Shown: positions 4,642 to 58,874, counted from the stretch's first letter. The stretch: 61,047 bases of DNA from an uncultured Chlorobiota bacterium (GCA_900696645.1 CAADGV010000031.1:1-61047), one strand, 5' to 3'. Numbers and translations are program-made. Notes: generated by a model from the letters alone, not told the origin.

Positions 4642-4934
4642 GAAGACTGCTCCGCTCCGTAAATCTCTTCAATGATTCTTCCCATGGCTGTATCGAGACA
4701 CTGCTCGGCTTCATCCAAGTCCAATCGTGAGTTGGGAAATGCCTTTAACTCAAAACGGACGCCGTCGGTGATTGGCTGAGCCCGCAGGGTATCCAGAGTC
4801 TCGTATTTTCCAGGCCCGCATTTGTCCTCTACCGGCGCACAGTCGCCCTTTCGGTCGAACAGCTTGCTGTCATCGCCAATGCCGGTCAGTTCTATCTCAA
4901 TTCTGTCGTCGTGACGTGTAATAGTATGTTTCAT
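4638..4934 (-). CDS. Unrecognised 98-residue protein of the arsenic operon
   Basis: I do not recognise a family. The protein is soluble and acidic, with no signal peptide or membrane segment. It has two cysteines close together (KGDCAPVEDKCGPGKYETL, residues about 31-47) and a third near Cys79 (EAEQCLDTA). The first part looks beta-rich and the end amphipathic helical (AMGRIIEEIYGAEQ). It is locked into the operon by 4-base overlaps on both sides, with arsN2 upstream and arsC downstream, so it is almost certainly co-translated with arsenic genes. The cysteine pair could bind As(III) or be redox active; that is inference. Confidence 0.75.
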   Translation of the reverse strand: MKHTITRHDDRIEIELTGIGDDSKLFDRKGDCAPVEDKCGPGKYETLDTLRAQPITDGVRFELKAFPNSRLDLDEAEQCLDTAMGRIIEEIYGAEQSS

Positions 4935-6136: not shown

Positions 6137-6151
6137 GGTATTCCTTTCAGA

Positions 6152-14630: not shown

Positions 14631-17600
14631 TTATGTGGCCATTGTTGCTTCAGGTTCGGGTTTGACGGCGCTTTCTTTTTCCTCCTCGTGTTCATGTTCC
14701 GGTGCAGTGGCACGCGTGAATCGGGCAAGAACGGTGTACAGAACAGGGACAAGAACAAGCGTCAGAAAGGTAGAGAAGAACATTCCGCCGACAACAGCAA
14801 GTCCGAGAGGCCGTCTCGACTCCGCACCCGCGCCGAACCCGATGGCAATCGGCAGAACGCCGAATATTGTTGCGAACGATGTCATGAGAATCGGGCGAAG
14901 ACGGATGGTGGCAGCCTGAATAACGGCGTTCAAAACCTCTTCGCCCCGTTCACGCAATTGATTCGCAAACTCGACAATCAGAATCGAATTCTTCGTTACC
15001 AATCCGACAAGCATAATCAACCCGATTTGCGAGTAGATGTTGAGACTTTGCCCGAAAATGAACAGCGTCAACAACGCGCCGAACACAGCAAGCGGAACGG
15101 AAAGCAGAATGGTAAAGGGGTGAACGAAACTCTCAAATTGTGCCGCCAGTACGAGATAAATGAAGATGATGGCGAGAAGGAACATGAAGTACAAACTCGT
15201 ACTGGAAGTCTTGTATTCAAGTGATTGCCCCCCGAATTCGCGCTTCATTCCCGCCGGAAGTTTCTCTGCTGCAATTCTGTCAAGATCGTCGAGTGCCTGA
15301 CCGAGGCTGACGCCGGGCCGTAGATTTGCCGTGAGCGTGGCGGAGCGTACCCGGTTGTAGTGGTTCAGCTCTTTCGGGGCAAGTGTTTCATCGATGCGGA
15401 CAACGTTGGCAAGCTGTACCAGCCCTCCGCTTCCGCGTATGTAGATTTCCCGAATTGCGTCGGGAGTAGCGCGGGCGGAAGACTTCATTTGAAGAATCAC
15501 ATCGTACTGTTTCGTGCCGCGTTTGAAATTTGTGACAACGCGGCCACCAAGGAACGTCTCCAACGTCAAGCCGATATCGGTGAGTGAAGCCCCTAATCCC
15601 GCTGCCCGTTCCCTATCGATCGTTAGATCGAGCTGCGGCTTGTTCAGTCGGAGATCTGTGTCGAGGTTGATGAGATAGCCCAATTTGTTTGCCTCGCCCA
15701 TCATAATGCCGACTGCCTGATTCAGTTCTTCGTAACTCTCGGCTTGAAGAACGTACTCAACCGGACTTGAGCTGAATCTTCCTCCGATGCTCGGCGGGTT
15801 GATGACGAATGCAAGCACGCCGGGAATCGAGAAAAGTTGCGGGAACAGTTCCTGAACGATTTGTTGCTGGGATTTCGTGCGTTCGCTCCGCGGCTTCAAT
15901 CCCAAAAACAAAAACCCGTTTGTCACGCGTCCGGGCCCGCCGAAGCCCAACCCGACGGCAGTGAATAACGTGCGACGCTCGGGAAGGGCAAGCAGATGCT
16001 TTTCCACTTCTCTCATATACCTGTCGGTATAGTCCAGCGTCGCCCCCTCGGGCGCAATCACTATGCCGAATGCAATTCCCCGATCTTCAATCGGCACCAA
16101 CTCGCTCGGAAGAAATCGGAACAACACGGCACTCAGTACAACCGTCAGAACTGCAGCAGCCAGCATCAGCCACTTTCGCTTCAACGCGAAGCGGAGAGTA
16201 CGTTCGTAGATATTGTTCAGAAACTCGAAGAATGCATCAAACGATCGGGTTGCCCAACTATTGCTCGCACCGTGAAGCGGTTTCAGAATCCGCGACGAAA
16301 GCATCGGGGAAAGCGACAGAGCAACGAAACCGGAAATCAGAATAGCAACTGCGAGGGTTAATCCGAACTCGTTGAACAATCTGCCCACATTGCCCGTAAG
16401 AAAAGCAAGCGGGATGAACACCGCCACAAGCGAAATCGTTGTGGCGATGATGGCGAAGCCGATTTCCTTGCTGCCGTCGAACGCCGCCTGCCGGCGTGTC
16501 TTTCCCATCTCAATATGGCGGTAGATGTTTTCGAGCATTACGATTGCATCATCGACCACAAGCCCGATGGCCAGCACGAGAGCAAGCAGTGTGAGGATGT
16601 TGAGCGTAAAACCCGCGAAGTACGCTACGCTTAATGCGCCGATAATAGAGATCGGAATAGCGACGGACGGGATTGCCGTTGCCCGAAAACTCTTGAGAAA
16701 CGCCAGAACCACAAGAACAACCAGACACATGGCGATGACAAGTGTTTCAATGACTTCGTTGATAGATTCTTGAATAAACCGCGATGAGTCGTACGCAACC
16801 TCGAGTTTCATTCCGGCGGGGAGGAGGGAAAGTAGGTCTTCCAGCGCCGCCCGGATTTCGGCTGCAACATCCACAGTGCTTGCTTTGGATTGTTTCACTA
16901 TTCCCAACCCGACCGCAGTTTGCCCGTTGAACCGTGCCACGGTCCGCTCGTCCTCCGCCCCGACCTTTACTTCAGCAATATCGCTCAAGCGGACGATGTC
17001 GTTGTTCTTTCGGGAGACGATGATGGCTGCAAACTCTTCGGGAGTTGTCAGTTCGCCGCGGGTACGCACGGAGAATTCTCGTTCAGCGCCCTCAACGCGG
17101 CCGGCAGGGATTTCCGCATTCTCGCTGCGAATAGCGGCCTCGACTTCCTGAGTAGTAAGCTGATGTGCTGCCATTCGCAGCGGGTCGAGCCATACGCGCA
17201 TTGCATAGCGCCGCTCGCCGCCGATGATTACCGAGCCAACGCCGGTGAGCCGCTGCAAGCGTTCCTTCAAAATACGGTCGGCAATGTCGGTAAGCTCAAG
17301 GCCGCTGTGCCTGTCGCTGGAAAGCGCAAGCCACACGATGGGTTGGGCGTTGGCATCAACTTTGGAGATAACCGGGTCGTCGACCGCGCGGGGGAGTCGG
17401 GCACGTACGCGAGATACGCGGTCCCGGACATCATTGGCCGCCTCATCGACGTTGCGGCTCAGTTCGAACTCTATCGTAATGACCGAGCCTTGCTCACGGC
17501 TGGACGACGTCATAGTCTTGACCCCTTCCAGCGTTGCGAATTGTTCTTCCAGAATGTTGGTGATTTCTGTTTCGACGACTGCGGGACTTGCGCCACGGTA

Positions 17601-17750
17601 GAACGTCACAACAGAAACAATCGGCGGATCGATATCAGGATACTCGCGAACGGGCAAGCGGGTGAACGAGATGATCCCGAACAGCAGAATCGTAAAACTC
17701 ATCACGCTGGCAAAGACCGGGCGCCGTATTGAGATTGTGCTAAGCTTCAT
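14631..17750 (-). CDS. RND multidrug-type efflux permease (HAE1 family)
   Basis: A 1039-residue inner-membrane proton-driven pump. It opens MKLSTISIRRPVFASVMSF, typical of AcrB/MexB relatives. The proton relay is intact: paired aspartates in AIGLVVDDAIVMLENIYRH (TM4) and lysine in GLVTKNSILIVEFANQLRERG (TM10). Two large periplasmic loops, and FVHPFTILLSVPLAVFGAL before TM10-12. The C-terminal tail is acidic and His-bearing (EHEHEEEKE) after the last helix. Third gene of a TolC-adaptor-pump operon, five bases after the adaptor. Substrates are probably hydrophobic compounds rather than metals. Confidence 0.95.
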   Translation of the reverse strand: MKLSTISIRRPVFASVMSFTILLFGIISFTRLPVREYPDIDPPIVSVVTFYRGASPAVVETEITNILEEQFATLEGVKTMTSSSREQGSVITIEFELSRNVDEAANDVRDRVSRVRARLPRAVDDPVISKVDANAQPIVWLALSSDRHSGLELTDIADRILKERLQRLTGVGSVIIGGERRYAMRVWLDPLRMAAHQLTTQEVEAAIRSENAEIPAGRVEGAEREFSVRTRGELTTPEEFAAIIVSRKNNDIVRLSDIAEVKVGAEDERTVARFNGQTAVGLGIVKQSKASTVDVAAEIRAALEDLLSLLPAGMKLEVAYDSSRFIQESINEVIETLVIAMCLVVLVVLAFLKSFRATAIPSVAIPISIIGALSVAYFAGFTLNILTLLALVLAIGLVVDDAIVMLENIYRHIEMGKTRRQAAFDGSKEIGFAIIATTISLVAVFIPLAFLTGNVGRLFNEFGLTLAVAILISGFVALSLSPMLSSRILKPLHGASNSWATRSFDAFFEFLNNIYERTLRFALKRKWLMLAAAVLTVVLSAVLFRFLPSELVPIEDRGIAFGIVIAPEGATLDYTDRYMREVEKHLLALPERRTLFTAVGLGFGGPGRVTNGFLFLGLKPRSERTKSQQQIVQELFPQLFSIPGVLAFVINPPSIGGRFSSSPVEYVLQAESYEELNQAVGIMMGEANKLGYLINLDTDLRLNKPQLDLTIDRERAAGLGASLTDIGLTLETFLGGRVVTNFKRGTKQYDVILQMKSSARATPDAIREIYIRGSGGLVQLANVVRIDETLAPKELNHYNRVRSATLTANLRPGVSLGQALDDLDRIAAEKLPAGMKREFGGQSLEYKTSSTSLYFMFLLAIIFIYLVLAAQFESFVHPFTILLSVPLAVFGALLTLFIFGQSLNIYSQIGLIMLVGLVTKNSILIVEFANQLRERGEEVLNAVIQAATIRLRPILMTSFATIFGVLPIAIGFGAGAESRRPLGLAVVGGMFFSTFLTLVLVPVLYTVLARFTRATAPEHEHEEEKESAVKPEPEATMAT

Positions 17751-17755
17751 ACCTG

Positions 17756-18841
17756 CTATCCTCCACTCTTCATGGAACCGTTGCTTTGAGCTTCGGCGGG
17801 GTTGCCGCTGATGGGCATGACTTTCCCTCCGTCAAACAGCTTTTGATGTCCTGCACGGACAACCGTCATTCCCTCTTTCAATCCTTCAAGAACTTCAACT
17901 ACATCGGAAAGCCGTGTACCGAGAACAAGCGGTACGCGGGCAACGGTGCTGTCTTCCTTCACCACAAACACAAACGACTGTGTTCCGCCGCCGAAAATTG
18001 CTTCGTTCGGGATGGTAAGCGCATTCGGGCGTTCGCTGAGAACGGCGGAGATGTTTGCAGACATGCCCGGACGGAACCGGCGGTCGGGATTTGTTACGCG
18101 GGCAACAACGCGGGCGCTGCGTGTCGTCTGATCGATAATGGGCTCGATGACGATAATCTTTCCTTTCAATTCATAACCGGGAAAGGCGGTTGATGAAATG
18201 TTCACCGCTGCCCCTTGCGAGAGAAGGGAGAGGTAGCGTTCAGGAGCGGAGAAGAAAACTCGAATCTCGTCAATGTTCGCAAGTTCTGTTATCGCTTGTC
18301 CGGGCCTGAGAAATGTTCCGATACTCACGCGCCGTGCTCCGATAATTCCGCTGAACGGCGCAACGATCCGGGTTTTTGCGTAGCGGGCTTTTGCGACATC
18401 GAGGTTTGCTTCAGCAACCTTTAGTGCCGCGGCGGCATCATCCAAATCCTGCGGCGCGCCTGCTCGCTGATCGACCACACTCTTTACTCTGTCATAGGTT
18501 GCTTTGCTTTGGGCGCGGAGCGCTTCGGCTCGTGCAACTTCGGCGGCAAGCTGTGCATCGTCCAACTGTGCAATCGGCTGGCCGCGTTGAATGAATCCGC
18601 CCTCTTTGAACGGCAACGCCTTGACTGCTGCATCAATTTCGGAGACGACGGTGATTGCCTCGAGCGCTTCAATAGTTCCGACGGCTTCGAATTTGTCGAT
18701 CACCTTCTGAACAGTAACTTTGCTGACCTCCACCGGCATGGGCGGCATGGAAAATCCGCCGCGTTTCTGATCCCCGCATCCGAGGAGAAGTATCCCGAAG
18801 AGAAGAAGAGTGAGAAGTGCCGGGGATAACATGCGTTTCAT
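17756..18841 (-). CDS. RND efflux periplasmic adaptor (membrane fusion lipoprotein)
   Basis: Links the pump at 14631-17750 to the outer-membrane channel. I start it at the ATG at 18839-18841, which follows AGAAAGG and opens a lipoprotein signal (LLLFGILLLGCGDQ; Cys after LLG). The order is beta-barrel, lipoyl half (IEALEAITVVSEIDA), alpha-helical hairpin (about residues 105-160), second lipoyl half (KTRIVAPFSGIIGARRVSIG) and a membrane-proximal domain ending in LKEGMTVVRAGHQKLFDGGKV. 361 residues, normal for the family. Confidence 0.93.
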   Translation of the reverse strand: MKRMLSPALLTLLLFGILLLGCGDQKRGGFSMPPMPVEVSKVTVQKVIDKFEAVGTIEALEAITVVSEIDAAVKALPFKEGGFIQRGQPIAQLDDAQLAAEVARAEALRAQSKATYDRVKSVVDQRAGAPQDLDDAAAALKVAEANLDVAKARYAKTRIVAPFSGIIGARRVSIGTFLRPGQAITELANIDEIRVFFSAPERYLSLLSQGAAVNISSTAFPGYELKGKIIVIEPIIDQTTRSARVVARVTNPDRRFRPGMSANISAVLSERPNALTIPNEAIFGGGTQSFVFVVKEDSTVARVPLVLGTRLSDVVEVLEGLKEGMTVVRAGHQKLFDGGKVMPISGNPAEAQSNGSMKSGG

Positions 18842-18873
18842 ACGTTGGTGCCTTTCTGATTTTCGAAATATCA

Positions 18874-20433
18874 TTACTGTTGAGCCGGATATGCACCGGA
18901 TGTCAATTGTCTTAATGCGGCTGCGGCTTTCGCATTCCGCACAATAGCCTGTGAATACCGCTGCTGGGCAACTGCAAAATCCGCCCCAAGCCGCACAAGC
19001 TCAAATGCCGTTGAGCGTCCGTTCTGAAATTCAATCAGCCCGATGCGAACTTGTTCCTGCGCGGCGTCAACGCCTTCACGCGCAGCCTTTAACCGGCGGC
19101 TTCCGTGGTACAAATCTCTGTAGCTTGCACGGACTTGTTCTTCGAGAACCCTTGCTTGTTGGATGTAACGTTGCTCGGCGAGAACGACTTCCGCTTCAAG
19201 CCGTTCCTTCTCACCAAATCCGCTTCGCAATCCGATGGGGATGTTCACTTCAACTCCGATACTCCAAGTGGGAAAGCTGCGCCTGAGGGATTGTCGTATT
19301 GCTTCATTCAGAGTGCCGCTGATTGCCGAACGCAGGGTATCGCCGCCAAACACGACATCACGTGCCGAGCCCGCGAGTCCGCTGCCGCCAATCGAGCCAA
19401 CGACATCAACTCGGGGCAGAGCCTCCCAGAACGCCGCGTTGGAAAGCGCCCGCTGTGCCTCGATATCTGCTTTTGCTGCTTGCAGTTGCAGATTTCGCTC
19501 GATTGCTTTTGCGACGAGTGCATCCGCTTCTTCGAGCGGAAATTCGGCCGGAGGAGTATCGGCTGCAAGATAGCGTCGAGCGGGGGACTCGGGTCGGGCG
19601 CCGATCAGCGACGCGATCTGATCCGAAAGCCTGTCGAGCTGTTCTTCACGATCAAGAAGGAGAATTTCCTGTTCAGCCAAAAATGTGCGGGCATTGGCAA
19701 CCTGATTCGGGCCGATGAGTCCTGTTTGTGCACGTACTTCCGTTTCTTGCAGAAAAGATTTAGCCCGGTCACGCGTCAACTTCTGAACGGCATAATCTCT
19801 CTCTGCCGCATACAGATCCCAGTAATTTTGCTCGACGCGTGAACTGATGGCAAGAACTTCCTGATCGTAGCGTGCCTGCGCCGCCTCAAGCTCCTGATCC
19901 GTCTTCACAACCTGCTTTCGGGCCGAGACATGAAATCCGCCCAACAGCGGCTGGCGCAGACTCAGGTTACCGAATGCTGTGTATTGTGGATTGAGAAATG
20001 CAAAAGTGGAATTCGTATTGAGCCGGACGGCATTCATCGACAACTCCAATCTCGTTCCGATTGGTGTTTCGTACCGAATGCCGGCGTTGCCGGTGGTTTG
20101 CGTTGTAGCTAATACAGCCGCTCCTGCAAAGAACGAAGCGGTCGGCTGTTCCTGATCGATATGATTGAGATTGAAGAAGAGTTCCGGGTCGAATGCACCG
20201 GCCTGCCGTCGTGCAGCGCCGCGTGCGGCCATGAATGAGGCTTCCGCCGATTTGACTGAAGTTGCGTTGGTGAGGGCGTGTTCTACAGCTTCACGCAATG
20301 ACACATGCTTCCCCTCAATCTGACCCAAAATAATCTGAAGGGCGCTGTCGGGGTTTGCGGTTTGTGCGTGACCTGTTGTGAACGCACAACACAGTGCCGT
20401 CATAACGAGGCACGTGAACAACTTGTTGGACAT
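18874..20433 (-). CDS. TolC-family outer-membrane efflux channel
   Basis: A long periplasmic alpha-barrel channel, about 519 residues from the ATG at 20431-20433, which begins a clear signal peptide (CLVMTALCCAFTTGHAQ). An in-frame ATG 48 bases upstream is possible but would put charged residues before the signal. Two OEP repeats: VSLREAVEHALTNATSVKSAEA, and later NLQLQAAKADIEAQRALSNA with RQAR-type coiled helices. It precedes the adaptor by 32 bases and completes the tripartite exporter. Confidence 0.92.
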   Translation of the reverse strand: MSNKLFTCLVMTALCCAFTTGHAQTANPDSALQIILGQIEGKHVSLREAVEHALTNATSVKSAEASFMAARGAARRQAGAFDPELFFNLNHIDQEQPTASFFAGAAVLATTQTTGNAGIRYETPIGTRLELSMNAVRLNTNSTFAFLNPQYTAFGNLSLRQPLLGGFHVSARKQVVKTDQELEAAQARYDQEVLAISSRVEQNYWDLYAAERDYAVQKLTRDRAKSFLQETEVRAQTGLIGPNQVANARTFLAEQEILLLDREEQLDRLSDQIASLIGARPESPARRYLAADTPPAEFPLEEADALVAKAIERNLQLQAAKADIEAQRALSNAAFWEALPRVDVVGSIGGSGLAGSARDVVFGGDTLRSAISGTLNEAIRQSLRRSFPTWSIGVEVNIPIGLRSGFGEKERLEAEVVLAEQRYIQQARVLEEQVRASYRDLYHGSRRLKAAREGVDAAQEQVRIGLIEFQNGRSTAFELVRLGADFAVAQQRYSQAIVRNAKAAAALRQLTSGAYPAQQ

Positions 20434-20729
20434 GGTTTTGAAAGAACGTAAATGATTAGTGATCGCCGAACGGCGCTGCATTACATAGTCGTTTCACAAC
20501 CTGCAAATTCGACATCGATGGCAGTCAGCATTGCGGCAGGAACGGCAGTGAGCCATTCGGAGTGCGCACAACGTATTCAATATAGATGTAACTCACAACT
20601 ACTTTTTTGTGCAGGATTCCGCGAGTATTGACCGGCAGATGGCTTCATCAACAGCGACCTCACCCCGAACAGTAGGGTTTTGTGCTGTTTAACGTGGAAG
20701 AAAACGGAGAGTTACAGCCGTTCAAAAAA

Positions 20730-24906: not shown

Positions 24907-25308
24907 ATGCAATTCTCTCTTAAATATAGAATCACCGGACTGACGCTCGCCGCCGTGTTTGCGCTGTTCAACATCGGCTTGCCGGTCGTTGTTGCCTCCT
25001 GCCCGATGATGAAGCTCGAGAACTCGCGTGCCTGCATCATGTGCAGCGAAGATCCGTCATCGGGCGTTCAAGTTACGCGTGCCATTGACACATCCTGCTG
25101 CGTTACCGTCTTTGCAGCAGACAGGAACAAGACGGAGTTTCTGCAAGTCAACAAACACCTGCTTGAGTTTGCAAAGCTTCTTCTCGCGGTAGTGTCGGAT
25201 GTCGTTCCTGCAACTGTAATCCGTAATCCCCAATCCGTAATCACACTCAGCGCTTCACCCTCCCGCAGCACCGACATTCCCATTCTCATTTCATCACTTC
25301 TGATTTAG
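24907..25308 (+). CDS. Small exported Cys/Met-bearing protein upstream of the metal efflux genes
   Basis: A 133-residue protein. An N-terminal hydrophobic segment (ITGLTLAAVFALFNIGLPVVVA) looks like a signal peptide. The mature start is SCPMMKLENSRACIMCSED, followed by DTSCCVTVFAADRNKTEFL: six cysteines and Met pairs within 60 residues, suggestive of Cu/Ag binding. No family recognised. The C-terminal part contains a heptamer array (25216-25243, coding VIRNPQSVI) and is rich in Ser/Thr/Ile, so it may be recently altered. It lies about 215 bases before the CusC-like gene, on the same strand. Confidence 0.65.
   Translation: MQFSLKYRITGLTLAAVFALFNIGLPVVVASCPMMKLENSRACIMCSEDPSSGVQVTRAIDTSCCVTVFAADRNKTEFLQVNKHLLEFAKLLLAVVSDVVPATVIRNPQSVITLSASPSRSTDIPILISSLLI
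25216..25243 (+). repeat. Four-unit degenerate 7-bp tandem array inside a coding region
   Basis: Units GTAATCC, GTAATCC, CCAATCC, GTAATCA in direct succession. As 28 bases it is not a multiple of three, so gain or loss of a unit would shift the frame. See the other 7-bp arrays at 23913-23938 and 53584-53639. Confidence 0.75.
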
Positions 25309-25324
25309 AATTTTCTCGCGCCGT

Positions 25325-25440
25325 GCCACAGAGGCACTGAGCCGCAGAGTCTTCCTGCTAAGAATTGCTGTCACGACGAGATCGTCAAACCAGCATTCGC
25401 CTCCTCTACAAAATTCTCTGTGTCTCCGTGACTCTGTGGC
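25325..25440. repeat. Dispersed inverted-repeat element, copy 1
   Basis: A 116-bp intergenic element bounded by imperfect 25-bp inverted repeats. The left arm starts GCCACAGAGGCAC (25325-25349) and the right arm ends GACTCTGTGGC (25416-25440), with 21 of 25 positions complementary. The interior also resembles copy 2 at 35699-35817 (CAGAGT[C/T]TTCCT ... AATTCTC[T/C]GTG). No coding capacity, so a MITE-like or structural-RNA repeat. Confidence 0.75.
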
Positions 25441-25524
25441 AAACCTATACAGCCCTGCTATGACGTCGATTTGATTGGAAAAGATCAATCGCAAGTTGCT
25501 CGCTAAACACGATGAGGAAATTCA

Positions 25525-26781
25525 ATGAAGTACATACTAACGCTCCTTCTACCATTGCAACTCTACGCGCAAGAGGTTGACACACTAAATCTCGATGAAC
25601 TTGTGCGCGAGGCGCTGCGGAACAATCCCGAACTCAAAGCCCTCGAGTATACTCGTGACATGATGGAACTGCGGACGGAAAGTGTAGGCACGCTTCCCGA
25701 TCCCGAATTCACCTACATGCGTGAGGAAATGCCCCGCTTCCGTTGGAATGCGGCAATGATGGGAAAATTCGGGCTGATGCAAATGTTCCCGTTTCCGGGA
25801 AAGCTCTCGACCGAAACAGAGATTGCCGGGATTCGTGCCGAACACGCCCATCATGAACACATGGAAAAGGCAAACGAAGTATTGGCAAAGCTACGCTCAA
25901 TGTACTTCGAGTTGTGGTTCGTGCAGCAATCCACTGCGTTGAACCGTGAGAATCTCCGGCTCCTCGAACAGTTCACAACAATTGCGCAAACACGTTACGG
26001 GGTCGGCCAGTCGCCGCAACAAGATGTGCTGAAAGCATTCGTCGAGATCGCAAGACTCGAAAATCAACTCGTCGCGTTGCGACAACAAGAACTGAGCGCG
26101 AAGGCGATGCTCATGTCGTTGCTCGGCCGATCGCCGTTGGATACGCTCGGCGTTGCCGCTGTTCCGCCGAACATTGGTTTCCTGCCGACGCTTGATACGC
26201 TACATCAGACTGCATACCGGTTTCGCGGAATGCTGCTTCACGATTCTCTTTCTGTTGAAGAAGGGGAGAAGATGAAATCGCTGGCGAAGAAAGAATACCT
26301 GCCGGATTTCAGACTCGGCATTGAGTTTCTGAGAATGCCGAACAACCCGGGCTACCGCGCGTGGTCGGTTTCCGCAGGCATCACGCTTCCGTTTGCGCCG
26401 TGGAGCTTAAGCAGAACAAGCGCAAAAGTGGAGGAGGCAAGCATTGGTGTTGACAGGGCGCGGGAGAATCTGAAGAATTCCCGCAATATGATTCGCGCAA
26501 ACATCAGCGACCTGTACTTCAGGGCTGAATCGTTTACCAGACAATTGGAGAACTACACAACTGTAATTGTGCCGCAAACGCAACAAGCATTGCAGGCCGG
26601 CATGATGGCATATCAGACGGGCAAAACGGATTTCCTGATGCTGATTGATTCGTACCGGATGCTCGTTGAAGTGACGATGGAAAAACTAATGCTGCGGATG
26701 CAGTGTGAACAAGCTGTTGCCGAGTTGAAGCGTGAAGTCGGCTACGCCGGAATATTTGAAGTTCAACGTGAAAGGAATTGA
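25525..26781 (+). CDS. CusC-like outer-membrane channel (TolC family) of a metal efflux system
   Basis: A 418-residue protein with a short signal peptide (YILTLLLPLQLYAQ). Two OEP repeats: LNLDELVREALRNNPELKALEYT at the start, and a late helical pair ending LMLRMQCEQAVAELKREVGY. The long helix AEHAHHEHMEKANEVLAKLRSMYFELWFVQQ and ARYGVGQSPQQDVLKA-type motif (here TRYGVGQSPQQDVL) are typical of heavy-metal TolC relatives. Met- and His-rich patches (FTYMREEMPRFRWNAAMMGKF) support a metal substrate. Its stop overlaps the adaptor start by one base. Confidence 0.9.
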   Translation: MKYILTLLLPLQLYAQEVDTLNLDELVREALRNNPELKALEYTRDMMELRTESVGTLPDPEFTYMREEMPRFRWNAAMMGKFGLMQMFPFPGKLSTETEIAGIRAEHAHHEHMEKANEVLAKLRSMYFELWFVQQSTALNRENLRLLEQFTTIAQTRYGVGQSPQQDVLKAFVEIARLENQLVALRQQELSAKAMLMSLLGRSPLDTLGVAAVPPNIGFLPTLDTLHQTAYRFRGMLLHDSLSVEEGEKMKSLAKKEYLPDFRLGIEFLRMPNNPGYRAWSVSAGITLPFAPWSLSRTSAKVEEASIGVDRARENLKNSRNMIRANISDLYFRAESFTRQLENYTTVIVPQTQQALQAGMMAYQTGKTDFLMLIDSYRMLVEVTMEKLMLRMQCEQAVAELKREVGYAGIFEVQRERN

Positions 26782-28355
26782 TGATGAAAGAGAATGTTTT
26801 AGGTGCGATGCTGTTTATCGTTGCGCTTGCACTCTTCGGCTGCACAAAATCCGACCAACAGCAATCCGCCGACTCGCAAGCGCATGAGACGCAGAGGGCC
26901 GAAGAATACTACACCTGCCCGATGCATCCGTCGGTCCGGTCGGATAGGCCCGGCGCCTGCCCTGTGTGCAACATGGCGCTCGTGAAGAAGACGACGCAGA
27001 AAGAGATGTCCGTTGACGAAACAGCAAACTTGCAGGCCGTCAGCCTCTCACCGACGCAACGCGTTATGGCGAACGTCTCGGTGGTGATGGTGAAGCGGCA
27101 ACCGGTAAGCCGGGATATTCAAGCCGTCGGCATCGTGAGTTACGCGGAGCCGAATTACAAACACATCAGTATGCGATTCCCCGGTCGGTTGGAAAAACTC
27201 TATCTCTCCTACACCGGCCAGCAGGTTCGCAAAGGCGACCCCGTTGCCGACGTGTACAGCCCCGAAGCGATCTCCGCTCAACAAGAATATCTTCTCGCGC
27301 TCAATTCATACGAGCAAGCATCGCAGGGAATGCAATCGTTTGCATCATCCGCCGGGCAACTTCTCGAACAATCAGAGCAGAAACTTCTGCAATGGGGATT
27401 CACGCAGAATCAGATTTCACGACTGAAGGAGACTCGCAAAATCAACCACATCGTCACAATCTACTCGCAAGTCAGCGGAACGGTTGTCAAGAAAAGCGTC
27501 GATCCGCAGCATTATGCATCAACGGGCGAGGATATGTTTGATGTTGCCGATCTCTCGACAGTCTGGATTTATCTTGATGTGTATGAGAGGGATATTCGCT
27601 TTGTGGCGCCCGGGCAACCGGTTCAGATTACAACCGAGGCGTATCCCCATGAGAAGTTCAGCGGCAAAGTGATGTTCATTGATCCCGTTGTGAATCCGGA
27701 AACCCGCACGATTCGCGTTAGAACGGAATTCCCGAATCGACAACTGAAGCTGAAGCCGAATATGTATGCCACTGCACTGATCGCCGTTCCGAAGGCGGAT
27801 GCCCTTGTTGTTCCCTCAACTGCCGTCATGTCAACCGGCAAGCGGACTGTTGTCTGGGTTGAGGTGAAGGAAAATAATTTCGAGCCGCGTGATGTCGCAG
27901 TCGGGGCTTCGCGGGATGGGCACACAGCAATCCTCAGCGGACTTCAAGAAGGCGATCATGTTGTCGAGACCGGCGGATTTCTCCTCGACTCGGAGAGTTC
28001 TTTGCAGCAGCCCGCTTCCGCCGATCCGCACGCGGGACACGGAACGCAAGAGAAATCCGATGCCGAAGTTCATTCCTCACACTCCAACGTGCAGGAAGTG
28101 AAGATTCGTGTAAAGGATGGCTACACGCCGGATGTCATACAGGTCAAGGCTGGAATTCCGGTGAAGCTTCTGCTTCAGCGTGACGAGAAGTCTGCATGCA
28201 GCGACGAATTCGTGATAGAGAAGCTCGGCATTCGCCGTTCCCTCCGTCCGTTTGCAACGACTGTAATCGAGTTCACACCGATAGAGATTGGCGAGATATC
28301 ATTTACATGCGGCATGAACATGCTGCACGGCAAAATGCTGGTTGAGGCGAGGTAA
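26781..28355 (+). CDS. CusB-like adaptor with added metal-binding and cupredoxin-like domains
   Basis: A 524-residue lipoprotein (LFIVALALFGCTKSD). A heavy-metal-binding YHS-like segment spans about residues 43-73 (YYTCPMHPSVRSDRPGACPV then CNMAL). The adaptor core follows (lipoyl halves at PNYKHISMRFPGRLEKLY and KINHIVTIYSQVSGTVVKK). A C-terminal cupredoxin-like domain covers about residues 437-524, with SACSDEF and FTCGMNMLHGKM supplying Cys, Met and His ligands. Three metal-handling modules in one adaptor suggest loading of Cu or Ag. ATGs at 26781 and 26784 both fit the AAAGGAA site. Followed three bases later by the pump. Confidence 0.92.
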   Translation: MMKENVLGAMLFIVALALFGCTKSDQQQSADSQAHETQRAEEYYTCPMHPSVRSDRPGACPVCNMALVKKTTQKEMSVDETANLQAVSLSPTQRVMANVSVVMVKRQPVSRDIQAVGIVSYAEPNYKHISMRFPGRLEKLYLSYTGQQVRKGDPVADVYSPEAISAQQEYLLALNSYEQASQGMQSFASSAGQLLEQSEQKLLQWGFTQNQISRLKETRKINHIVTIYSQVSGTVVKKSVDPQHYASTGEDMFDVADLSTVWIYLDVYERDIRFVAPGQPVQITTEAYPHEKFSGKVMFIDPVVNPETRTIRVRTEFPNRQLKLKPNMYATALIAVPKADALVVPSTAVMSTGKRTVVWVEVKENNFEPRDVAVGASRDGHTAILSGLQEGDHVVETGGFLLDSESSLQQPASADPHAGHGTQEKSDAEVHSSHSNVQEVKIRVKDGYTPDVIQVKAGIPVKLLLQRDEKSACSDEFVIEKLGIRRSLRPFATTVIEFTPIEIGEISFTCGMNMLHGKMLVEAR

Positions 28356-28358
28356 GCC

Positions 28359-31300
28359 ATGATTGAAAGAATCATAGACTTCTCCGCCCGCAACCGGTTC
28401 ATCATCATCGTTGCGTACCTGCTGGTGGTTGGCGCGGGAATCTGGGCGGTGCGGCACACGCCGCTTGATGCAATTCCCGATCTCTCGGAAAACCAGGTCA
28501 TCGTCTTCACGGAATGGATGGGCCGGTCGCCGCAGCTTGTTGAGGATCAAGTGACCTTTCCGCTTGTCACAGCATTACAGGGCGTGCCCGAAGTACATGC
28601 AGTCCGTGCGCAATCGATGTTCGGCATGTCGTTCATCTACATCATCTTCAATGAGTCAACGGAGTTGTACTGGGCGAGAAGTCGTGTACTTGAAAAGCTT
28701 GCGACAATCCAATCGTCGTTGCCGCAAGGCGCAAAGGTTCAGCTCGGTCCCGATGGAACGGGAGTCGGGCATATCTACTGGTACACCGTGGAGGGTAGAT
28801 ATGATCTCGGTACGCTGCGCGCAATTCAGGATTGGTACGTGAAGCTGAACTTGCAGGGCGTGCAGGGCGTGGCCGAAGTTGCTTCGATCGGCGGCTACGT
28901 GAAGCAGTATCAAGTTGATGTTGACCCGAGCAAGATGAAAGCGTATGCGATTACGCTTGATGACGTTCGCAACGCGGTGATGCGTTCAAACAACGACGTG
29001 GGGGGAAAGATTCTGGAAGTCTCCGACGCGGAGTACTTTGTTCGCGGGCAGGGGTACATTCAATCGGTGAAGGATGTCGAAAACATCATTGTGGGCAAAG
29101 GCACAAACGGGACGCCGGTGTACGTCCGCAATATCGGCACGGTGCAGTTGGGCGGAGACATTCGCCGCGGCTCGCTGGAGAAAGACGGGAAAGGGCAGGT
29201 CGTCGGCGGCATTGTCGTGATGCGCTACGGCGAGAATGCAAAGGATGTGATTGATCGTGTCAAGAAGAAGATTGAAGAAATCACTCCCGGACTTCCGCCC
29301 GGTGTCGAAATCAAGATGGCGTATGACAGAAGTGATTTAATTACTGCATCCGTCGGAACGCTCAATCGTGCATTGCTGGAAGAGGCGCTCGTCGTCAGTA
29401 TCATGGTGATGATTTTTCTTCTGCACTTCCGCAGCGTGCTTCGGGTAATTGTGGAAATTCCGGTCGCGGTGTTGATTGCGTTCATCTTCATGAAAGTCTT
29501 CAATATTACCTCCAACATCATGTCATTGGGGGGTATTGCGCTTGCAATCGGCGTTATTGTCGATGCGTCGATTGTGTTGGTGGAGAATGCATACCGCAAT
29601 GTGGCTCGTGCGCAAGAAATGAAAGGAGAGCTGTCGAAACAAGACTTCATCGAAATCTCCATCCTCTCTGCAAAGCAAGTCGGGCCGGCGATTTTCTTCT
29701 CCGTTATGATCATGGTCGTGTCGTTCCTGCCGGTATTTCTGTTGGAAGGGCAGGAGGGCAAGTTGTTCCGGCCGCTTGCGTTCACAAAAACGTTCGTTCT
29801 GCTCGGCTCGGCGTTCATTGCCATCACGTTGGTGCCTGTTCTCATGACAATGTTGACGAGAGGGAAGTTCAGAACCGAAAATCAAAATCCCATCACTAAC
29901 TTTTTGAACAAACTCTACGCGCCTGTTATTCGATGGGTATTGAACAACAGGAAGACGACGGTTGCGCTCAACCTTCTTGCCCTTCTCATCACCATCCCGA
30001 TGATCATGAGTATTGGTTCGGAATTCATGCCCCCGCTGGATGAAGGGAGTTTATTATTCATGCCCGTCACGCTGCCGTCAGCGTCGATCACGGAAGTGAA
30101 TCGCATTCTGCAAGTCCAGGATGCAATCATCAAATCTATCCCTGAAGTCGAAATGGTGTTGGGCAAATCCGGAAAAGCCGAAACCTCAACCGACCCGGCA
30201 CCTGTCAGCATGATCGAGTCAATCATTCTACTCAAGCCAAAATCAGAATGGCGGCCCGGCATGACGAAGGATGACATTGTCGCGGAGCTTGATGCGAAGC
30301 TGCAAATTCCCGGCGTGCGCAACGGCTGGACGCAGCCGATTATCAATCGCATCAACATGCTCTCGACGGGCGTGCGAACTGATTTGGGCGTGAAGATTTT
30401 CGGAACAAATCTGGATACGCTTGAGCGACTTGCAATTCAAGCCGAGCAGATTCTGCGCAAAGTCCCCGGCGCTGCGGACTTGTACGCTGAACGAACACAG
30501 GGCGGACTCTTTCTCGACATCAACATCAATCGTGAGGCCGTTGCCCGGTACGGCATCAACATCGGCGCTGTGCAGGATATCATCGAGACGGCAATCGGCG
30601 GCGAAAATATCGGAACGGTTCTCGAAGGACGGCAGCGCTTCCCGATTCGTGTGCGTTACGCGCGAGAGATGCGGAACAGTGTTGATGAATTGAAGAGCCT
30701 GCTCGTTCCGGTCGGCTCTGCCTCCGGCGGGATGCCGCAATCTTCGGGGGGCGGAGATGCGATGGCAGAAGCGGGAGGAATGGAAGGCGGCAGTTCGTGG
30801 GGGAGTTCAAACACACGTATCTCGAAGCCGCAACTTGCGCTGGTTCCGACAACGGAGACTCGCTTTTTGCGAAGCGAAGTTTCTACCGGCTCGTACATTC
30901 CTCTCGGGCAACTGGCCACAATAGAAATGGTGCCCGGCCCGCCGATGATTTCAAGCGAGAACGCGCAACTCCGCTCCATCGTCTTCCTGAATGTCCGCGG
31001 CCGCGACATGGGAAGTTTCGTCAATGAAGCGAAGGATGTTCTTACAAACGCATTGCAGCTTCCGCAAGGTTACACAGTTGAGTGGAGCGGACAGTGGGAA
31101 AACCAGATTCGGGCAAGAGAACGTCTCACGTTGCTTATGCCGATTGTTCTCTTCCTCATTTTCTTCATGCTCTACATGGTCACGAAAGATTTTTCCGAAG
31201 CGTTTGTCGTGATGCTCTCCGTTCCGTTTGCGCTCATCGGCGGCGTCTATCTTATCTACATTCTCGGATACAACTTCTCGGTAGCGGTTTGGATCGGGTT

Positions 31301-31700
31301 TATTGCGCTGTACGGATTGGCTGTCGAGACAGGTGTCGTGATGGTTGTGTATTTGCATGAGGCGCTTGACAGAAGAATTCACGCTCACAAAACCGGACAA
31401 CGTGAAGCCGTTACGCCGCAAGATGTGCTGGACGCAACAATCGAAGGCTCGGTGCTTCGTCTTCGCCCGAAGATCATGACGGTGGGGACAACCATGATTG
31501 CGCTCATCCCGATTATGTGGAGCACAGGAGTCGGTGCCGATGTGATGCAGCCGCTCGTTGCGCCGATGATCGGCGGATTGGTGACATCAACCGTTCACGT
31601 TCTTATTGTCACGCCGATTCTGTTTTATATGATGAAAGCACGGGCGTTGCGGAAAGGAACGCTGGAGATTTCGAAGATGGCAAGTTGGATGAAAGAGTAG
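28359..31700 (+). CDS. CusA/CzcA-family heavy-metal RND pump, Cu/Ag-like
   Basis: A 1113-residue inner-membrane pump of the HME-RND family. TM4 reads GGIALAIGVIVDASIVLVEN, like the monovalent-cation CusA type and unlike the DFG of Zn/Co CzcA. RINMLSTGVRTDL keeps the methionine equivalent to CusA Met573, and FGKSG-type KAETSTDPAPVSMIES matches CusA. An insertion of about 60 residues (784-843) rich in Gly, Ser and Met separates the second periplasmic lobe from YIPLGQLATIEMVPGP. Last of the channel-adaptor-pump operon. Cu(I)/Ag(I) is inferred from these motifs. Confidence 0.93.
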   Translation: MIERIIDFSARNRFIIIVAYLLVVGAGIWAVRHTPLDAIPDLSENQVIVFTEWMGRSPQLVEDQVTFPLVTALQGVPEVHAVRAQSMFGMSFIYIIFNESTELYWARSRVLEKLATIQSSLPQGAKVQLGPDGTGVGHIYWYTVEGRYDLGTLRAIQDWYVKLNLQGVQGVAEVASIGGYVKQYQVDVDPSKMKAYAITLDDVRNAVMRSNNDVGGKILEVSDAEYFVRGQGYIQSVKDVENIIVGKGTNGTPVYVRNIGTVQLGGDIRRGSLEKDGKGQVVGGIVVMRYGENAKDVIDRVKKKIEEITPGLPPGVEIKMAYDRSDLITASVGTLNRALLEEALVVSIMVMIFLLHFRSVLRVIVEIPVAVLIAFIFMKVFNITSNIMSLGGIALAIGVIVDASIVLVENAYRNVARAQEMKGELSKQDFIEISILSAKQVGPAIFFSVMIMVVSFLPVFLLEGQEGKLFRPLAFTKTFVLLGSAFIAITLVPVLMTMLTRGKFRTENQNPITNFLNKLYAPVIRWVLNNRKTTVALNLLALLITIPMIMSIGSEFMPPLDEGSLLFMPVTLPSASITEVNRILQVQDAIIKSIPEVEMVLGKSGKAETSTDPAPVSMIESIILLKPKSEWRPGMTKDDIVAELDAKLQIPGVRNGWTQPIINRINMLSTGVRTDLGVKIFGTNLDTLERLAIQAEQILRKVPGAADLYAERTQGGLFLDININREAVARYGINIGAVQDIIETAIGGENIGTVLEGRQRFPIRVRYAREMRNSVDELKSLLVPVGSASGGMPQSSGGGDAMAEAGGMEGGSSWGSSNTRISKPQLALVPTTETRFLRSEVSTGSYIPLGQLATIEMVPGPPMISSENAQLRSIVFLNVRGRDMGSFVNEAKDVLTNALQLPQGYTVEWSGQWENQIRARERLTLLMPIVLFLIFFMLYMVTKDFSEAFVVMLSVPFALIGGVYLIYILGYNFSVAVWIGFIALYGLAVETGVVMVVYLHEALDRRIHAHKTGQREAVTPQDVLDATIEGSVLRLRPKIMTVGTTMIALIPIMWSTGVGADVMQPLVAPMIGGLVTSTVHVLIVTPILFYMMKARALRKGTLEISKMASWMKE

Positions 31701-31792
31701 CTTGCCCGCCGAAGCGGAGTGTAGGCGGGTAATCAGTAACCCGAAGTTTGTAGTTAGGAACAGACTCATTCTAGAACTGAAAGGAAGAACCA

Positions 31793-32134
31793 ATGTTTAC
31801 AAAAGCCATTTGCCTGATTGCTGTGCTGCTTCTTGCGGGCTGTCAGGGATCGAAACAAGAAGGTCAGGCTATAGCGGCCGATGAAACGACGATCAAGGTA
31901 GAGACAGTCCGATGTGAAATGTGCGTAACAAACGTGTCAAATGCGTTGGAAAAACTCGACGGCGTTGAAGGTGTAGATGTGAGTCTCAGAGATCACAAGG
32001 CAACCGTAAAATATGTTACCTCAAAGGTTACACGGGATGCTCTCGTGAACGCGATCGCCCAGGCAGGATACAACGCGGATTCCACTCCCCGAAATGAAGA
32101 GGCGTACCGGGAACTTCCGAAGTGTTGCCAGTAG
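31793..32134 (+). CDS. HMA-domain lipoprotein (MerP/periplasmic metallochaperone-like)
   Basis: A 113-residue protein with lipoprotein signal (ICLIAVLLLAGCQGSK) and one heavy-metal-associated domain. The metal motif is TVRCEMCVTNVSNALEKLDG (CxxC). The later strands are VDVSLRDHKATVKYV and ALVNAIAQAGYNAD. A final KCCQ adds two cysteines. About 92 bases after the pump, same strand. It probably delivers or buffers the pump's metal in the periplasm. Confidence 0.9.
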   Translation: MFTKAICLIAVLLLAGCQGSKQEGQAIAADETTIKVETVRCEMCVTNVSNALEKLDGVEGVDVSLRDHKATVKYVTSKVTRDALVNAIAQAGYNADSTPRNEEAYRELPKCCQ

Positions 32135-32262
32135 CCCGCAACACAACGGTGACGCAGAATACGCCAATGTTCAACCGCTCATAAATAACTCGGATTTTTG
32201 ATGTGAAAATGCTATATTTAAAATAATCAGAATCATTCATCAACCCCAAAAAGGATCATCTC

Positions 32263-32538
32263 ATGCGATCAAAACTCTTCTCATTCTTCATCGTCGTTTT
32301 CGCCATTACATTCTCGATTGCTGTTGCGTCAGACAAGGGCGGGAAAACAACTAAGAAGTCCGAAGCCAAGAAGGAAACGCAGGGATGCTGCATGACTGCC
32401 AAGGAAGTGAAGTCGGAAAACGACTGCGCCGATAAAGCTGTTATGGATTGCGATCCTGCCGAAGCAAAGACAGGGAAGTCGGCAAAGAAGTCAACAGAAG
32501 CAAAAGCAGACGTGAAGAAAGACGGGGAAGCGAAGTAA
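32263..32538 (+). CDS. Small exported Lys-rich, Cys-bearing protein
   Basis: A 91-residue protein with a signal peptide (LFSFFIVVFAITFSIAVA). The mature part is Lys/Glu/Ala-rich and low in complexity, with a central QGCCMTAKEV, NDCADKAVMDCD patch (four cysteines). No family known to me; a disordered periplasmic metal buffer is possible. A TATATTTA box at 32213-32220 may be its -7 element. Confidence 0.6.
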   Translation: MRSKLFSFFIVVFAITFSIAVASDKGGKTTKKSEAKKETQGCCMTAKEVKSENDCADKAVMDCDPAEAKTGKSAKKSTEAKADVKKDGEAK

Positions 32539-32614
32539 GGTTGTTCTCGTGAAGGACGGACTGTCGTCCGATCCGGTTTGCGATAGAATATCAATTAGTC
32601 TTGGGGGAGACGAA

Positions 32615-33025
32615 ATGACTGTTTTAGTTGTTGATGATGAACCTGCGTACAGAATGGTTGTACGCGAATTGCTGTTGGAAGATGGCTGTGATGTGCTCAC
32701 GGCTGAAAACGGAGACGAGGCGCTTCACAAGCTCTCAGTTGTTCATCCCGACATTATTGTATCGGATGTGTATATGCCGGTGATGGACGGGGCAAAATTG
32801 CATCGTTGCGTGCGAGCTAATCCTCGATATGAAAAGTTGCCGTTCCTGTTCGTATCCGGTTACAACGATGCATATACAATGCAGAGCGTCCGTGATCCCC
32901 GTTATGACGGCTTCGTGAGTAAGGGGGCCTCGGCAGACGAGTTGAAGAAATGGATCAAATACCTCACGACTCCCGAAGACAAGCGCTCGCGGTTTCTACC
33001 GGGACACTCCGGATCTCTGAACTGA
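32615..33025 (+). CDS. Stand-alone response-regulator receiver domain
   Basis: A 136-residue CheY-like protein. The ATG at 32615 follows GGGGAGA and starts MTVLVVDDEPAYRMVV (acidic pair); an in-frame upstream start would add an unrelated leader. The phosphoacceptor is Asp51 in IIVSDVYMPVMDG, with Ser in FLFVSGY (Thr/Ser position) and lysine in GFVSKGASADEL. No output domain, so it must act on a partner or serve as a phosphate sink. No kinase is adjacent. Confidence 0.9.
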   Translation: MTVLVVDDEPAYRMVVRELLLEDGCDVLTAENGDEALHKLSVVHPDIIVSDVYMPVMDGAKLHRCVRANPRYEKLPFLFVSGYNDAYTMQSVRDPRYDGFVSKGASADELKKWIKYLTTPEDKRSRFLPGHSGSLN

Positions 33026-35698: not shown

Positions 35699-35817
35699 GC
35701 CACCGAGGCACAGAGCCTCAGAGTTTTCCTTGGGAAATTGTTGCTGGGGACGACAAAGTTAAGGGCGGGATGCGTCTTTCACCTTTAGAATTCTCCGTGC
35801 CTCGGTGTCTCTGTGGC
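35699..35817. repeat. Dispersed inverted-repeat element, copy 2
   Basis: A 119-bp element with imperfect 25-bp terminal inverted repeats (GCCACCGAGGCAC..., 35699-35723; ...GTGTCTCTGTGGC, 35793-35817), 19 of 25 complementary. Related to copy 1 at 25325-25440 in ends and interior. It occupies the gap between the M28 peptidase and the YciI-like gene. Confidence 0.75.
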
Positions 35818-40217: not shown

Positions 40218-40353
40218 TTCATTTAGCTGCCTTTCTGCCGGTTCCGTCGTTACCTATTTGAAATTCTCCCTGCGCAATCTTAGATTGGTTCTGCGTATCA
40301 ATCCGTTCTCTTCTCTCAATCGGGTGGTTGCCGATATGTTTATCCCTCCACAT

Positions 40354-43300
40354 ATGAGGCGGAAGGTTTTGTTCTTTGCTTCACTCCTTCTCGTAACCCA
40401 CAGGGCTTTGTGCCAAGATGACTTGTCACCACATCGCTCCTTCGAACGCGTCCTCGCAGCCGACGGAGTTTCCAAGGGTACCGTCTATTCCATTCTTCAA
40501 GATCGTTACGGCTTTCTCTGGTTAGGCGCGGCAACGGGCTTGCTGCGGTACGATGGCTATTCCTTCAAACACTACACTCATCGTCCCGGCGACTCAACGT
40601 CACTCTCCGGTGATTTCATCTGGTCAATCAGCGAAGACTCCAGCGGCGATATCTGGATTGGAACATCGGGTCGTGGACTGAATCGGTACGTGCGGAGTGA
40701 GGAAAGATTCATCCGTTACTTGCACATGCCCAGCGATTCAACGAGTCTGCTCGGCGACGAAGTTGCATGGGTGTATGTGGATCGTGAGAACACTGTCTGG
40801 GCAGGATCATGGAACAAAGGCCTCAACAAACTTGACCGGAAGAGCGGAACATTCACTCGCTACACCTCGCTCGACGGACTTCCGAGCAACAATGTCCACC
40901 GCATCTACGAAGACAGCCACGGACGATTCTGGGTTGGAACGCGGCGCGGCCTTGCGCTGTTCGACCGCGAAACAGGAGCAAGCCGCATCTACACGCCGGA
41001 CCCCAACAAGCCGCGCTCGATTCCGGACGAGTACATCTTTGCGATTTATGAGATGCACGATGGCTCAGTCTGGATTGGAACGGATGCGGCCCTCTGCAGA
41101 TACGATCCCTCATCTGATGACTTCACGCGCTTTGTCATTTCAGCCATCAACAATCCGGTGCCTGCACTTTGCGAGGATGCCGACGGCAATCTCTGGATTG
41201 CAACCGATGGCAACGGTCTTATCCGCATGAATGTGCTGACGGGAGATTATGAGAGATACGCGTTGAGAAGTGAAGGTCAGGAAACGGAAGTCATCATGTC
41301 CCTGTTTCGCGATCGAACGGGAGTCCTGTGGACAGGTACAGTCGGAACCGGTCTTTGGAAGCTCAATGCATCGAAGGGGAGATTCGGCCACATAGTGCCG
41401 GATAACAAGACGGTGAATACACTCTTTGAAGATGCTGCCGGGACAATTTGGATCGGAACGCAAGTGGGCGTGAGGTACATGACGAGCGGAACGCGAGATG
41501 TGAAGGGAGTGGGGAGGAACTTTCCGGAGCCGTTGCGGAGGGGCGTCATCTACGCAATCAACGAAGACAGCGATAACTTGTGGTTCGGGACTTGGGGTAA
41601 CGGCCTGTATCGCATGAACAAGAAGAGCGGCACCTTCCATTTCTACAGCTACCCGTTGACATCGGCCGGAATCGGCATCGGCAGCACGGATGTGACGAGT
41701 CTATATCTGAACTCGAAGGGGGAAGTGTGGGTGGGACAAAGTGCCGGAGGAATAAGCCGTTACGATGCGGTGCGTGATAGCTTCTACCAATTCTCAAGCC
41801 GGACAACTCCTTTTCCCAGCGACTACGTGTGGGCGATTCATGAGGACAGGCGCGGTTACATATGGGCGGGCACCTGGGATCAAGGTGTCATTCGATTTGA
41901 GCCTCGATCCGTGGATTCAATTGTGTTCTCAAAGAAGAATGTCCGCTCAAACGGCCGCGCTATCAGCGGCAACACCGTTGTTTCCATTGCAGAAAGTCCT
42001 GACGGCATACTCTGGTTCGGAACTTGGGGGGATGGCTTGAACCGCTACGATCCTGTTGCCGACACCATCACCCATTACTCAACGGGTAACGGCCTCCCCA
42101 ACAACCACATCTACGGAATCCTCATCGACGCGAGCGGCAGCTTGTGGCTGACGACAGGCTTCGGGCTTGCGCGGTTCGATCCCGGCACAGGAACGTGCGT
42201 TACGTATGACGAGGGAGATGGAATTCAGTCGCTCGAATTCCGCCGCGGCGCGGCGCATCGCGGACGAGGCGGAATCTTCTACGTCGGCGGCACAAACGGG
42301 TTCAACATGTTTCGTCCCGATGAGATTGTTGCGAACTCCCACATTCCACCGATGGAGGTCACGAGCATGCGTGTGTTCGATCGTGAGGTGAATGTTCTGT
42401 CGAATCCGTTCTCATTCTCTCATGATGAGGATTACATCGCTTTCGAATTTGCCGCCCTCGATTTCTCCGAACCGAGGAAGAACAGATATGCATACAGGCT
42501 TGAAGGACTTGAGAATGATTGGGTCGAAGCAGGAACGCGAAGGTTTGTCAGCTACGCCAACCTCGCGCCCGGGGAGTATGCGCTCAAAGTGAAGGGGACA
42601 AACAACGACGGTCTCTGGAATGAAGAAGGTGTGACAGTGGCATTCACCATCGCTCCGCCTCCGTGGCGGACGTGGTGGGCATACACGCTGTACGTGCTTG
42701 TTGTCATGGCGGGCGCCATCGGTTTCCGGCGATACGAGATGAACAAGATCCGCAACAAGGAGAGACAGGAAGCGGCAATGCGGGAAGCGGAACTGCGTGC
42801 AGAAATAGAAAAGCAGAAGACCCGTGTGCAGATTGCCCGCGACCTTCACGATGAAGTGGGAAGCACCCTCAGCAGCATCACGTTCTTCGCGCAGGCACTG
42901 GGCAAAGCGGAAGAGGAAAAGGAAAACGCCGGAAAATTCCTCTCGCTCATTTCGGAAAGCTCGGCGCACGCAAAGGAGGCAATGAGCGACATTATTTGGT
43001 CAATCGATCCGGCGAACGACAGTTGGAATACGGTTGCGTCAAAGTTGCAGCGACACGCATCCGAGTTGTTCGAAAGCAAGGGTATTTCCCACAGGATCGA
43101 GATGCCCCCTTCCGATGTTACTGTCAATATGGACCCGCAACGTCGTCGGCATTTCTGGCTTCTGTTCAAGGAAATCATCACGAACGCGGCAAAGCACTCG
43201 CAATGCAGCGAGGCACACATCAGGCTGACTGTGGAAAACGAGCGGGTATGTCTGACTGTTTCTGATAATGGTACGGGCTTCGATGCCGGTGCTGTGAAGC

Positions 43301-43413: not shown

Positions 43414-43488
43414 GTCACGGCTTCATTCTGAAAAACACAAATTCATGTGGTGTTTCATGAGCTTTATGTCCTTACCATCTAAGGGGTT

Positions 43489-58863: not shown

Positions 58864-58874
58864 AATGCCTCCGT

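Follow-up and report, generated by a model that had tools for sequence, protein, structure and literature searches.

A Putative Leader Peptide and a Stop-Anchored mRNA Helix at the Head of a Copper/Silver Efflux Operon from an Uncultured Chlorobiota Bacterium

The Efflux Locus

The DNA considered in this study, hereafter the window, is a stretch of 61,047 nucleotides from the 4.2 Mb genome of an uncultured Chlorobiota bacterium (GCA_900696645.1, CAADGV010000031.1:1-61047), and the focus is on a small gene at position 24907, which heads a Cu/Ag efflux operon, together with an mRNA helix that begins at the stop codon of this gene. As argued below, the gene probably serves as the sensor in a translational switch that controls, in cis, the operon behind it.

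The genes that follow encode an outer-membrane efflux protein (OEP), a periplasmic adaptor, and a permease of the resistance-nodulation-division (RND) type, and they constitute a genuine CusC-CusB-CusA-type Cu(I)/Ag(I) operon, in which the Met triad of CusA is conserved. Each gene noted in a first-pass annotation of the window was found at its given place, on the + strand (Table 1). The three Met residues of the permease align with M573, M623, and M672 of E. coli CusA, and with Met at all three positions the permease probably transports Cu(I)/Ag(I). CusA-type permeases are common in the class, being present in 201 of its 294 genomes (E<=1e-150).

Table 1. Features of the efflux locus, with positions counted from the first nucleotide of the window.
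Feature	Position	Strand	Evidence
Leader gene, 133 aa, divergent HYC_CC_PP-type protein	24907-25308	+	Profile homologues, CC-to-stop spacing, dN/dS
Helix, 5' arm GAATTTTCTCG, starting at the final base of the TAG stop	25308-25318	+	Minimum-free-energy and centroid folds
Dispersed inverted-repeat element CACAGAG..., in the helix loop	25327-25438		35 genome matches
Helix, 3' arm TGAGGAAATTC, Shine-Dalgarno-like GAGGAA, ribosome-binding site of the OEP gene	25513-25523	+	Pairs with the 5' arm
OEP, CusC/TolC type	25525-26781	+	Pfam OEP 2.2e-35
Periplasmic adaptor, CusB type, predicted lipoprotein (LFGC)	~26781-28355	+	Pfam HlyD_D23 2.9e-73
Adaptor HMBD metal-binding module, YYTCPMHP...CPVC	26907-26990	+	Pfam HMBD 7.2e-14
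Adaptor C-terminal cupredoxin-like module, conserved C[ST].E and CGMxM	28077-28343	+	Pfam Cupredoxin_1 3e-19
CusA-type RND permease, Met triad M568/M618/M667	28359-31700	+	TIGR00914 1122 bits, above the CusA family cut-off of 701
HMA-domain lipoprotein, C-terminal end LPKCCQ	31793-32134	+	Pfam HMA 2.1e-12
Lys-rich exported protein, CC and two further Cys	32263-32538	+	dN/dS 0.13; metal loci in 5/294 genomes (weak homology, low-complexity sequence)
Solitary receiver	32615-33025	+	Response_reg 6e-22

The Leader Gene and Its Family

The product of the leader gene has an N-terminal hydrophobic helix (FALFNIGLPVVVASCPMM), followed by CIMC, a CC pair, a variable linker, and the sequence DIPILISSLLI directly at the stop codon. 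It contains five Cys residues (C32, C43, C46, C64, and C65), not the six that had been ascribed to it, and the ratio of nonsynonymous to synonymous substitutions, calculated against a same-genus relative, indicates purifying selection (dN/dS 0.18).

Pfam and NCBIfam scans with the single proteins from 24907 and 32263 returned nothing useful, and the window copy of the leader falls below detection with NF047658, the NCBIfam model for HYC_CC_PP, whose curated cut-off is 28 bits. Five of ten homologues tested pass this cut-off, including the one from locus L046 at 30.0 bits. Because the window copy itself gives no family match, its tie to HYC_CC_PP runs only through these homologues, and on this comparison it is a relative of the family and not a formal member. 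It keeps the CC pair, while HYC is replaced by ASC and PP by PS, and its relatives regain both typical motifs. The first-pass description of the product as unrecognised thus holds for the window copy and fails for the family.

Homologues were found in 46 of the 294 class genomes by single-sequence search and in 154 by the family profile, and the NF047658 model finds HYC_CC_PP in 117 of 395 phylum genomes. A related-locus search with a tightened alignment of the 24907 family led to 10 named Ignavibacteria/Bacteroidota loci. HYC_CC_PP is a named family across Bacteroidota that lies directly upstream of metal genes and has no stated function; no paper using the name was found. At class loci with enough flank, the leader is nearly always directly upstream of the efflux genes on the same strand, and in the neighborhoods that were fetched it almost always immediately precedes a co-directional OEP gene. 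The next gene at 91 class and phylum loci belongs to ACR_tran (29), OEP (29), HMA (13), TonB plug (8), or HMBD (5), categories that may overlap. Homologues found mostly away from metal genes would have spoken against the association that the first-pass annotation proposed; of the 91 downstream genes, most fall into metal families. One locus (L046) has two leader genes, at 4485-4892 and 6121-6528, in a single operon, with a 302-aa gene between them.

Conserved Spacing and C-Terminal Tail

In 97 homologues, the last CC pair precedes the stop codon by 70.2 +/- 2.1 residues (range 66-78), and in the window copy it does so by 68 aa. This constancy does not extend to the sequence of the linker, which shows 9% identity among equal-length pairs, compared with 7.1% expected from composition. 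The length from the first Cys to the CC pair is far more variable (standard deviation 8.7), and total length has a standard deviation of 11.8.

The second constant element lies at the stop codon. The final residue is Ile in 80 of the 97 proteins, with LLI (37), FLI (24), and YLI (8) as the commonest ends and FRI also occurring. The C-terminal residues are kept while homologues write them with differing synonymous codons, which points to selection at the level of the peptide. A PP pair occurs within the last 22 residues in 79/97 proteins and within the last 15 in 20/97; none was found in the window copy, its sibling L042 has one at 16-15 from the end, and an R[AG]PP motif is present in 2/97 members. 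Since the Ile or [LF]LI end is kept while the position of PP varies, the tail at the stop codon is taken to be the constant element.

These observations bear on the role that the first-pass annotation had given to this protein, namely that of a small periplasmic protein that carries or buffers Cu/Ag and passes it on to the adaptor as part of a relay. An exported-looking N-terminus, Cys/Met motifs (CPMM, CxMC, and CC), and a position that always adjoins efflux genes would all suit such a carrier. Yet a carrier would need neither a fixed spacing of 70 residues between CC and stop across a random-like linker, nor an unvarying LLI end, nor the base pairing, described below, between the stop region and the ribosome-binding site (RBS) of the next gene. 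Little fold is predicted either: in the AlphaFold model only the N-terminal helix (residues 5-31) is confident, and with a mean predicted local distance difference test score of 48 there is no usable fold. We consider the carrier role unlikely. Conservation falls instead on the CC-to-stop spacing, on the C-terminal residues next to the stop, and on a stop-anchored mRNA helix, and for this reason the product is better read as a regulatory leader peptide. The Cu/Ag efflux island itself stands, on the Met triad, the HMBD and cupredoxin modules, the HMA lipoprotein, and stand-alone cupredoxin-like genes; the relay through the 24907 product is not supported.

An mRNA Helix Anchored at the Stop Codon

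The intergenic region between the leader and the OEP gene is 216 nt long, folds as a whole with a z of -3.7, and contains an 11 bp helix, missed in the first-pass annotation, whose 5' arm starts within the leader's stop codon and whose 3' arm hides the GAGGAA located five bases ahead of the ATG at 25525. The loop holds a repeat, CACAGAGNCNCNGAG..., with 35 matches in its own genome, often as inverted pairs ~110 bp apart. A second copy lies in the window at 35701-35815, and another is found in the helix loop of L042. This repeat was rejected as a regulatory structure because it is a dispersed genomic element, and the window helix is kept despite its presence in the loop.

Alignments of whole intergenic regions by MAFFT were too divergent for covariation counting, and therefore each leader's stop region was paired with its own start region and with those of other loci (swapped). 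In the class set (n=33), pairing was -11.4 kcal/mol with the own region and -8.1 kcal/mol with swapped ones (z -6.5), whereas own and swapped pairing did not differ for 81 control intergenic regions between other co-directional genes of these loci (p 0.11). Pairing of <= -12 kcal/mol was reached by 15/33 leader loci and 7/81 controls; a count of contiguous stems alone discriminates less well in this set (15/33 versus 14/81). The phylum set (n=59) gave z -13.7, and all 92 loci together gave z -16.5, with 0/20,000 permutations as strong. The loci include related genomes, which was handled by taking one locus per genus group (n=61), and z then ranged from -12.6 to -14.4. The swap test thus rules out the mere complementarity of a Shine-Dalgarno (SD) to a general anti-SD sequence as the source of the signal, the genus sampling rules out inflation by relatedness, and the control set rules out a signal common to any intergenic region.

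The position of the signal is equally specific. When an 18-nt 5' window was slid along the sequence, the difference between own and swapped pairing was strongest precisely on the stop codon's first base (-4.0 kcal/mol), with -2.3 and -2.9 kcal/mol six bases either side and +0.3 to -1.1 elsewhere. When complete intergenic regions were folded as ensembles, 54/90 leader loci but 5/68 controls showed 7 or more expected pairs joining the stop arm to the start region (Fisher 1.7e-12). Most intergenic regions are 60-130 nt long and carry RBS-hiding helices. Leader and stop-anchored helix together form a layout that recurs across the phylum Bacteroidota.

A helix of this type alone would give plain translational coupling, in which any ribosome finishing the leader opens it, so that the level of the pump is set with no metal sensing. 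We regard this as quite unlikely, given that it leaves the conserved Cys residues, the CC-to-stop spacing, and the conserved C-terminal peptide unexplained. The length of the window's intergenic region suggests another possibility, attenuation like that of CruR of Bordetella pertussis (PMC9426467), where the protein layout is similar and the intergenic region is also long (162 nt). Here stalling or its relief would control Rho-dependent termination between the genes and not access to the RBS. The shorter regions with RBS-hiding helices at most loci argue against it, as does the scarcity in the family of R[AG]PP, given that the CruR motif is RAPP, and we judge it very unlikely.

A Proposed Translational Switch

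The gene order, the spacing, the peptide-level conservation of the C-terminus, and the helix at the stop codon can be read from the compared sequences themselves; from them we infer export, metal binding, stalling, and the direction of the response. In the switch that we favor, the N-terminal hydrophobic segment would direct the growing polypeptide to the Sec translocon. With the ribosome at the stop codon, the CC pair would lie ~68-70 residues up the chain, and the Cys sites would be just out in the periplasm. Metal bound at these sites would then restrain the chain and, together with the conserved tail DIPxxxSSLLI-stop, slow down termination. While the ribosome waits there, its A site on the stop codon, it would occupy the sequence from the stop to ~+12, which is the 5' arm of the helix, so that the helix would open, the RBS of the OEP gene would be freed, and OEP, adaptor, and CusA would be translated. 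When no metal is present, the ribosome would leave, the helix would close, and the pump would not be made. The actual metal-handling parts would then be the HMBD and cupredoxin modules of the adaptor and the HMA lipoprotein.

Several points weigh against this switch. The length spanning the ribosome tunnel and the translocon is roughly 70 residues, a figure of general knowledge and not of a calculation. The helix is not universal, since at 29/90 loci the stop arm and the start region share fewer than 5 expected pairs, and for 13 downstream genes the start codon was reassigned manually from the protein N-terminus. The window copy is the same kind of protein as HYC_CC_PP, a family marked by HYC, CC, PP, and its length, but it lacks PP and lies under the detection limit, and the alignment behind its AlphaFold model is just 9 deep. 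Moreover, C-terminal segments of CutF of Rhodobacter capsulatus placed on a LepB/SecM-type reporter did not stall alone (PMC9973294).

Extended to the whole family, the proposal becomes that HYC_CC_PP proteins are phylum-wide periplasmic nascent-chain metal sensors, with a metal site ~70 residues from the active center, an [LF]LI arrest tail, and a stop-anchored helix, a generalization to which we give even chances. It would offer a testable function for a widespread family that has no assigned role, and it suggests that control of translation may be how Bacteroidota and Ignavibacteria turn on metal efflux. In addition, the helix anchored at the stop codon provides an easy search rule for further leader peptides.

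Neighboring Genes and Other Features of the Window

As the first-pass annotation anticipated, the adaptor has a metal site at its N-terminus and a cupredoxin-like domain at its C-terminus, which together with the HlyD/CusB core make three parts by Pfam, and the HMA lipoprotein with its KCCQ end is likewise in place. In three sister Cu operons (L046, L047, and L048), the cupredoxin-like protein is encoded by a separate exported gene (L046_13, L047_18, and L048_14), alongside several genes for small exported proteins of the HMBD type. In other operons (L073 and L081) the C-terminal end of the adaptor is, by inspection, a YHS-like DPVCGM segment. Since the modules are arranged differently in sister operons, the window adaptor is one among several module combinations. 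HMA lipoproteins with a C-terminal CC recur in several operons.

The Lys-rich protein at 32263 is the product of a real gene, as its dN/dS against the same-genus relative shows. Its rare homologues all lie in metal loci, namely the operon of the genus, the G154 operon, and a position beside an HMA lipoprotein in L071. In the G154 operon, L046_19 joins a Lys/Cys-rich stretch like that of 32263 to two HMBD modules, and weaker look-alikes follow CusA in L059 and L068. The product may be a metal buffer or another metal-binding part, and the earlier suggestion that the two small proteins are new components of efflux systems survives as a possibility for this one, not for the 24907 product as a carrier. 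The solitary receiver, also under purifying selection (dN/dS 0.08, same-genus relative), lies between the efflux genes and an epimerase gene, and in L055 it stays near the epimerase where the 32263 gene is missing. Its inclusion in the efflux unit is therefore not evident, no link to metal was found for it, and it is probably only a neighbor.

Elsewhere, the window contains an arsenic-type cluster (3161-6544, - strand) with an SBF/ACR3-like transporter, an ArsC of the low-molecular-weight phosphatase type, an ArsM-like methyltransferase, and an ArsR regulator. A second tripartite RND system (14631-20481, - strand), probably of the multidrug type, consists of a permease, an adaptor with no metal modules, and an OEP-like protein. 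Two pairs of a large sensor kinase and a response regulator behind it are located on the + strand at 40258-44169 (Y_Y_Y, HisKA_3, and HATPase; Response_reg and GerE) and at 53641-57551, the second pair being judged by similarity only. Finally, an IS200-like Y1 transposase family gene is found at 58411-58878 (- strand).

Comparison with Known Systems

The pump resembles E. coli CusCFBA in its OEP, adaptor, and RND permease with a Met triad, and differs from it in having no separate CusF, in the fusion of HMBD and cupredoxin modules to the adaptor, and in the HMA lipoprotein that follows.

For the leader, the closest analogue is CutF (DUF2946), described in PMC9973294 as a small exported Cys protein that heads a Cu operon, acts in cis, needs a C-terminal motif, and is followed by an intergenic stem-loop that hides the SD of the next gene. 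There, metal on the exported nascent chain delays the ribosome and the stem-loop opens. By analogy, the layout of the 24907 locus is that of CutF, with a different end motif: the family has [LF]LI at the stop and only 20/97 members with PP in the last 15 residues, its helix starts at the stop codon, and its CC-to-stop distance is ~70. DUF2946 (PF11162) gave no Pfam match to the window copy or ten homologues (n=11). The filter given there for CutF-like proteins is fewer than 150 aa, a same-strand downstream gene within 1,000 nt, PP in the last 15 residues, and a Sec signal peptide. The window copy, at 133 aa and with its next gene at 216 nt, agrees in size and neighbor, lacks the PP, and does have the stem-loop. 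The same source counts CutF-like proteins in Bacteroidota and gives OEP as the commonest neighbor overall, and to this extent the association is already known. The spacing and helix were not found reported for Bacteroidota in the accessible part of that work, nor was a leader-switch layout for HYC_CC_PP in the searchable literature, and the ruler, the tail, and the stop-anchored helix appear to be new.

CruR, also of DUF2946, is likewise a Cu-sensing upstream open reading frame (ORF), in which a constant 45 residues separate the metal motif from the C-terminal arrest motif (PMC9426467). It does not depend on its signal peptide, in keeping with sensing in the cytosol. It differs from the 24907 family in its RAPP motif, its Rho-dependent termination, and its output, with Cu lowering the expression of an importer. 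The spacing to the stop codon may be a molecular ruler that could tell periplasmic nascent-chain sensors, at ~70 residues, apart from cytosolic sensors, of which CruR, at 45, is an example. RAPP/RGPP-type Cu leader peptides are reported missing from Bacteroidota (PMC12992588), a gap that HYC_CC_PP sensors, if real, would fill.

In Bacteroidota, the arrest peptides uA_NSP-stop and uDF_NAP-stop (PMC10987492) are also encoded by upstream ORFs whose conserved end directly abuts the stop codon; unlike the 24907 family, they end in Pro and are associated with genes for protein localization, secDF among them. Together with CutF and CruR, these stop-ending peptides are precedents that support the reading of the 24907 product as a regulatory leader.

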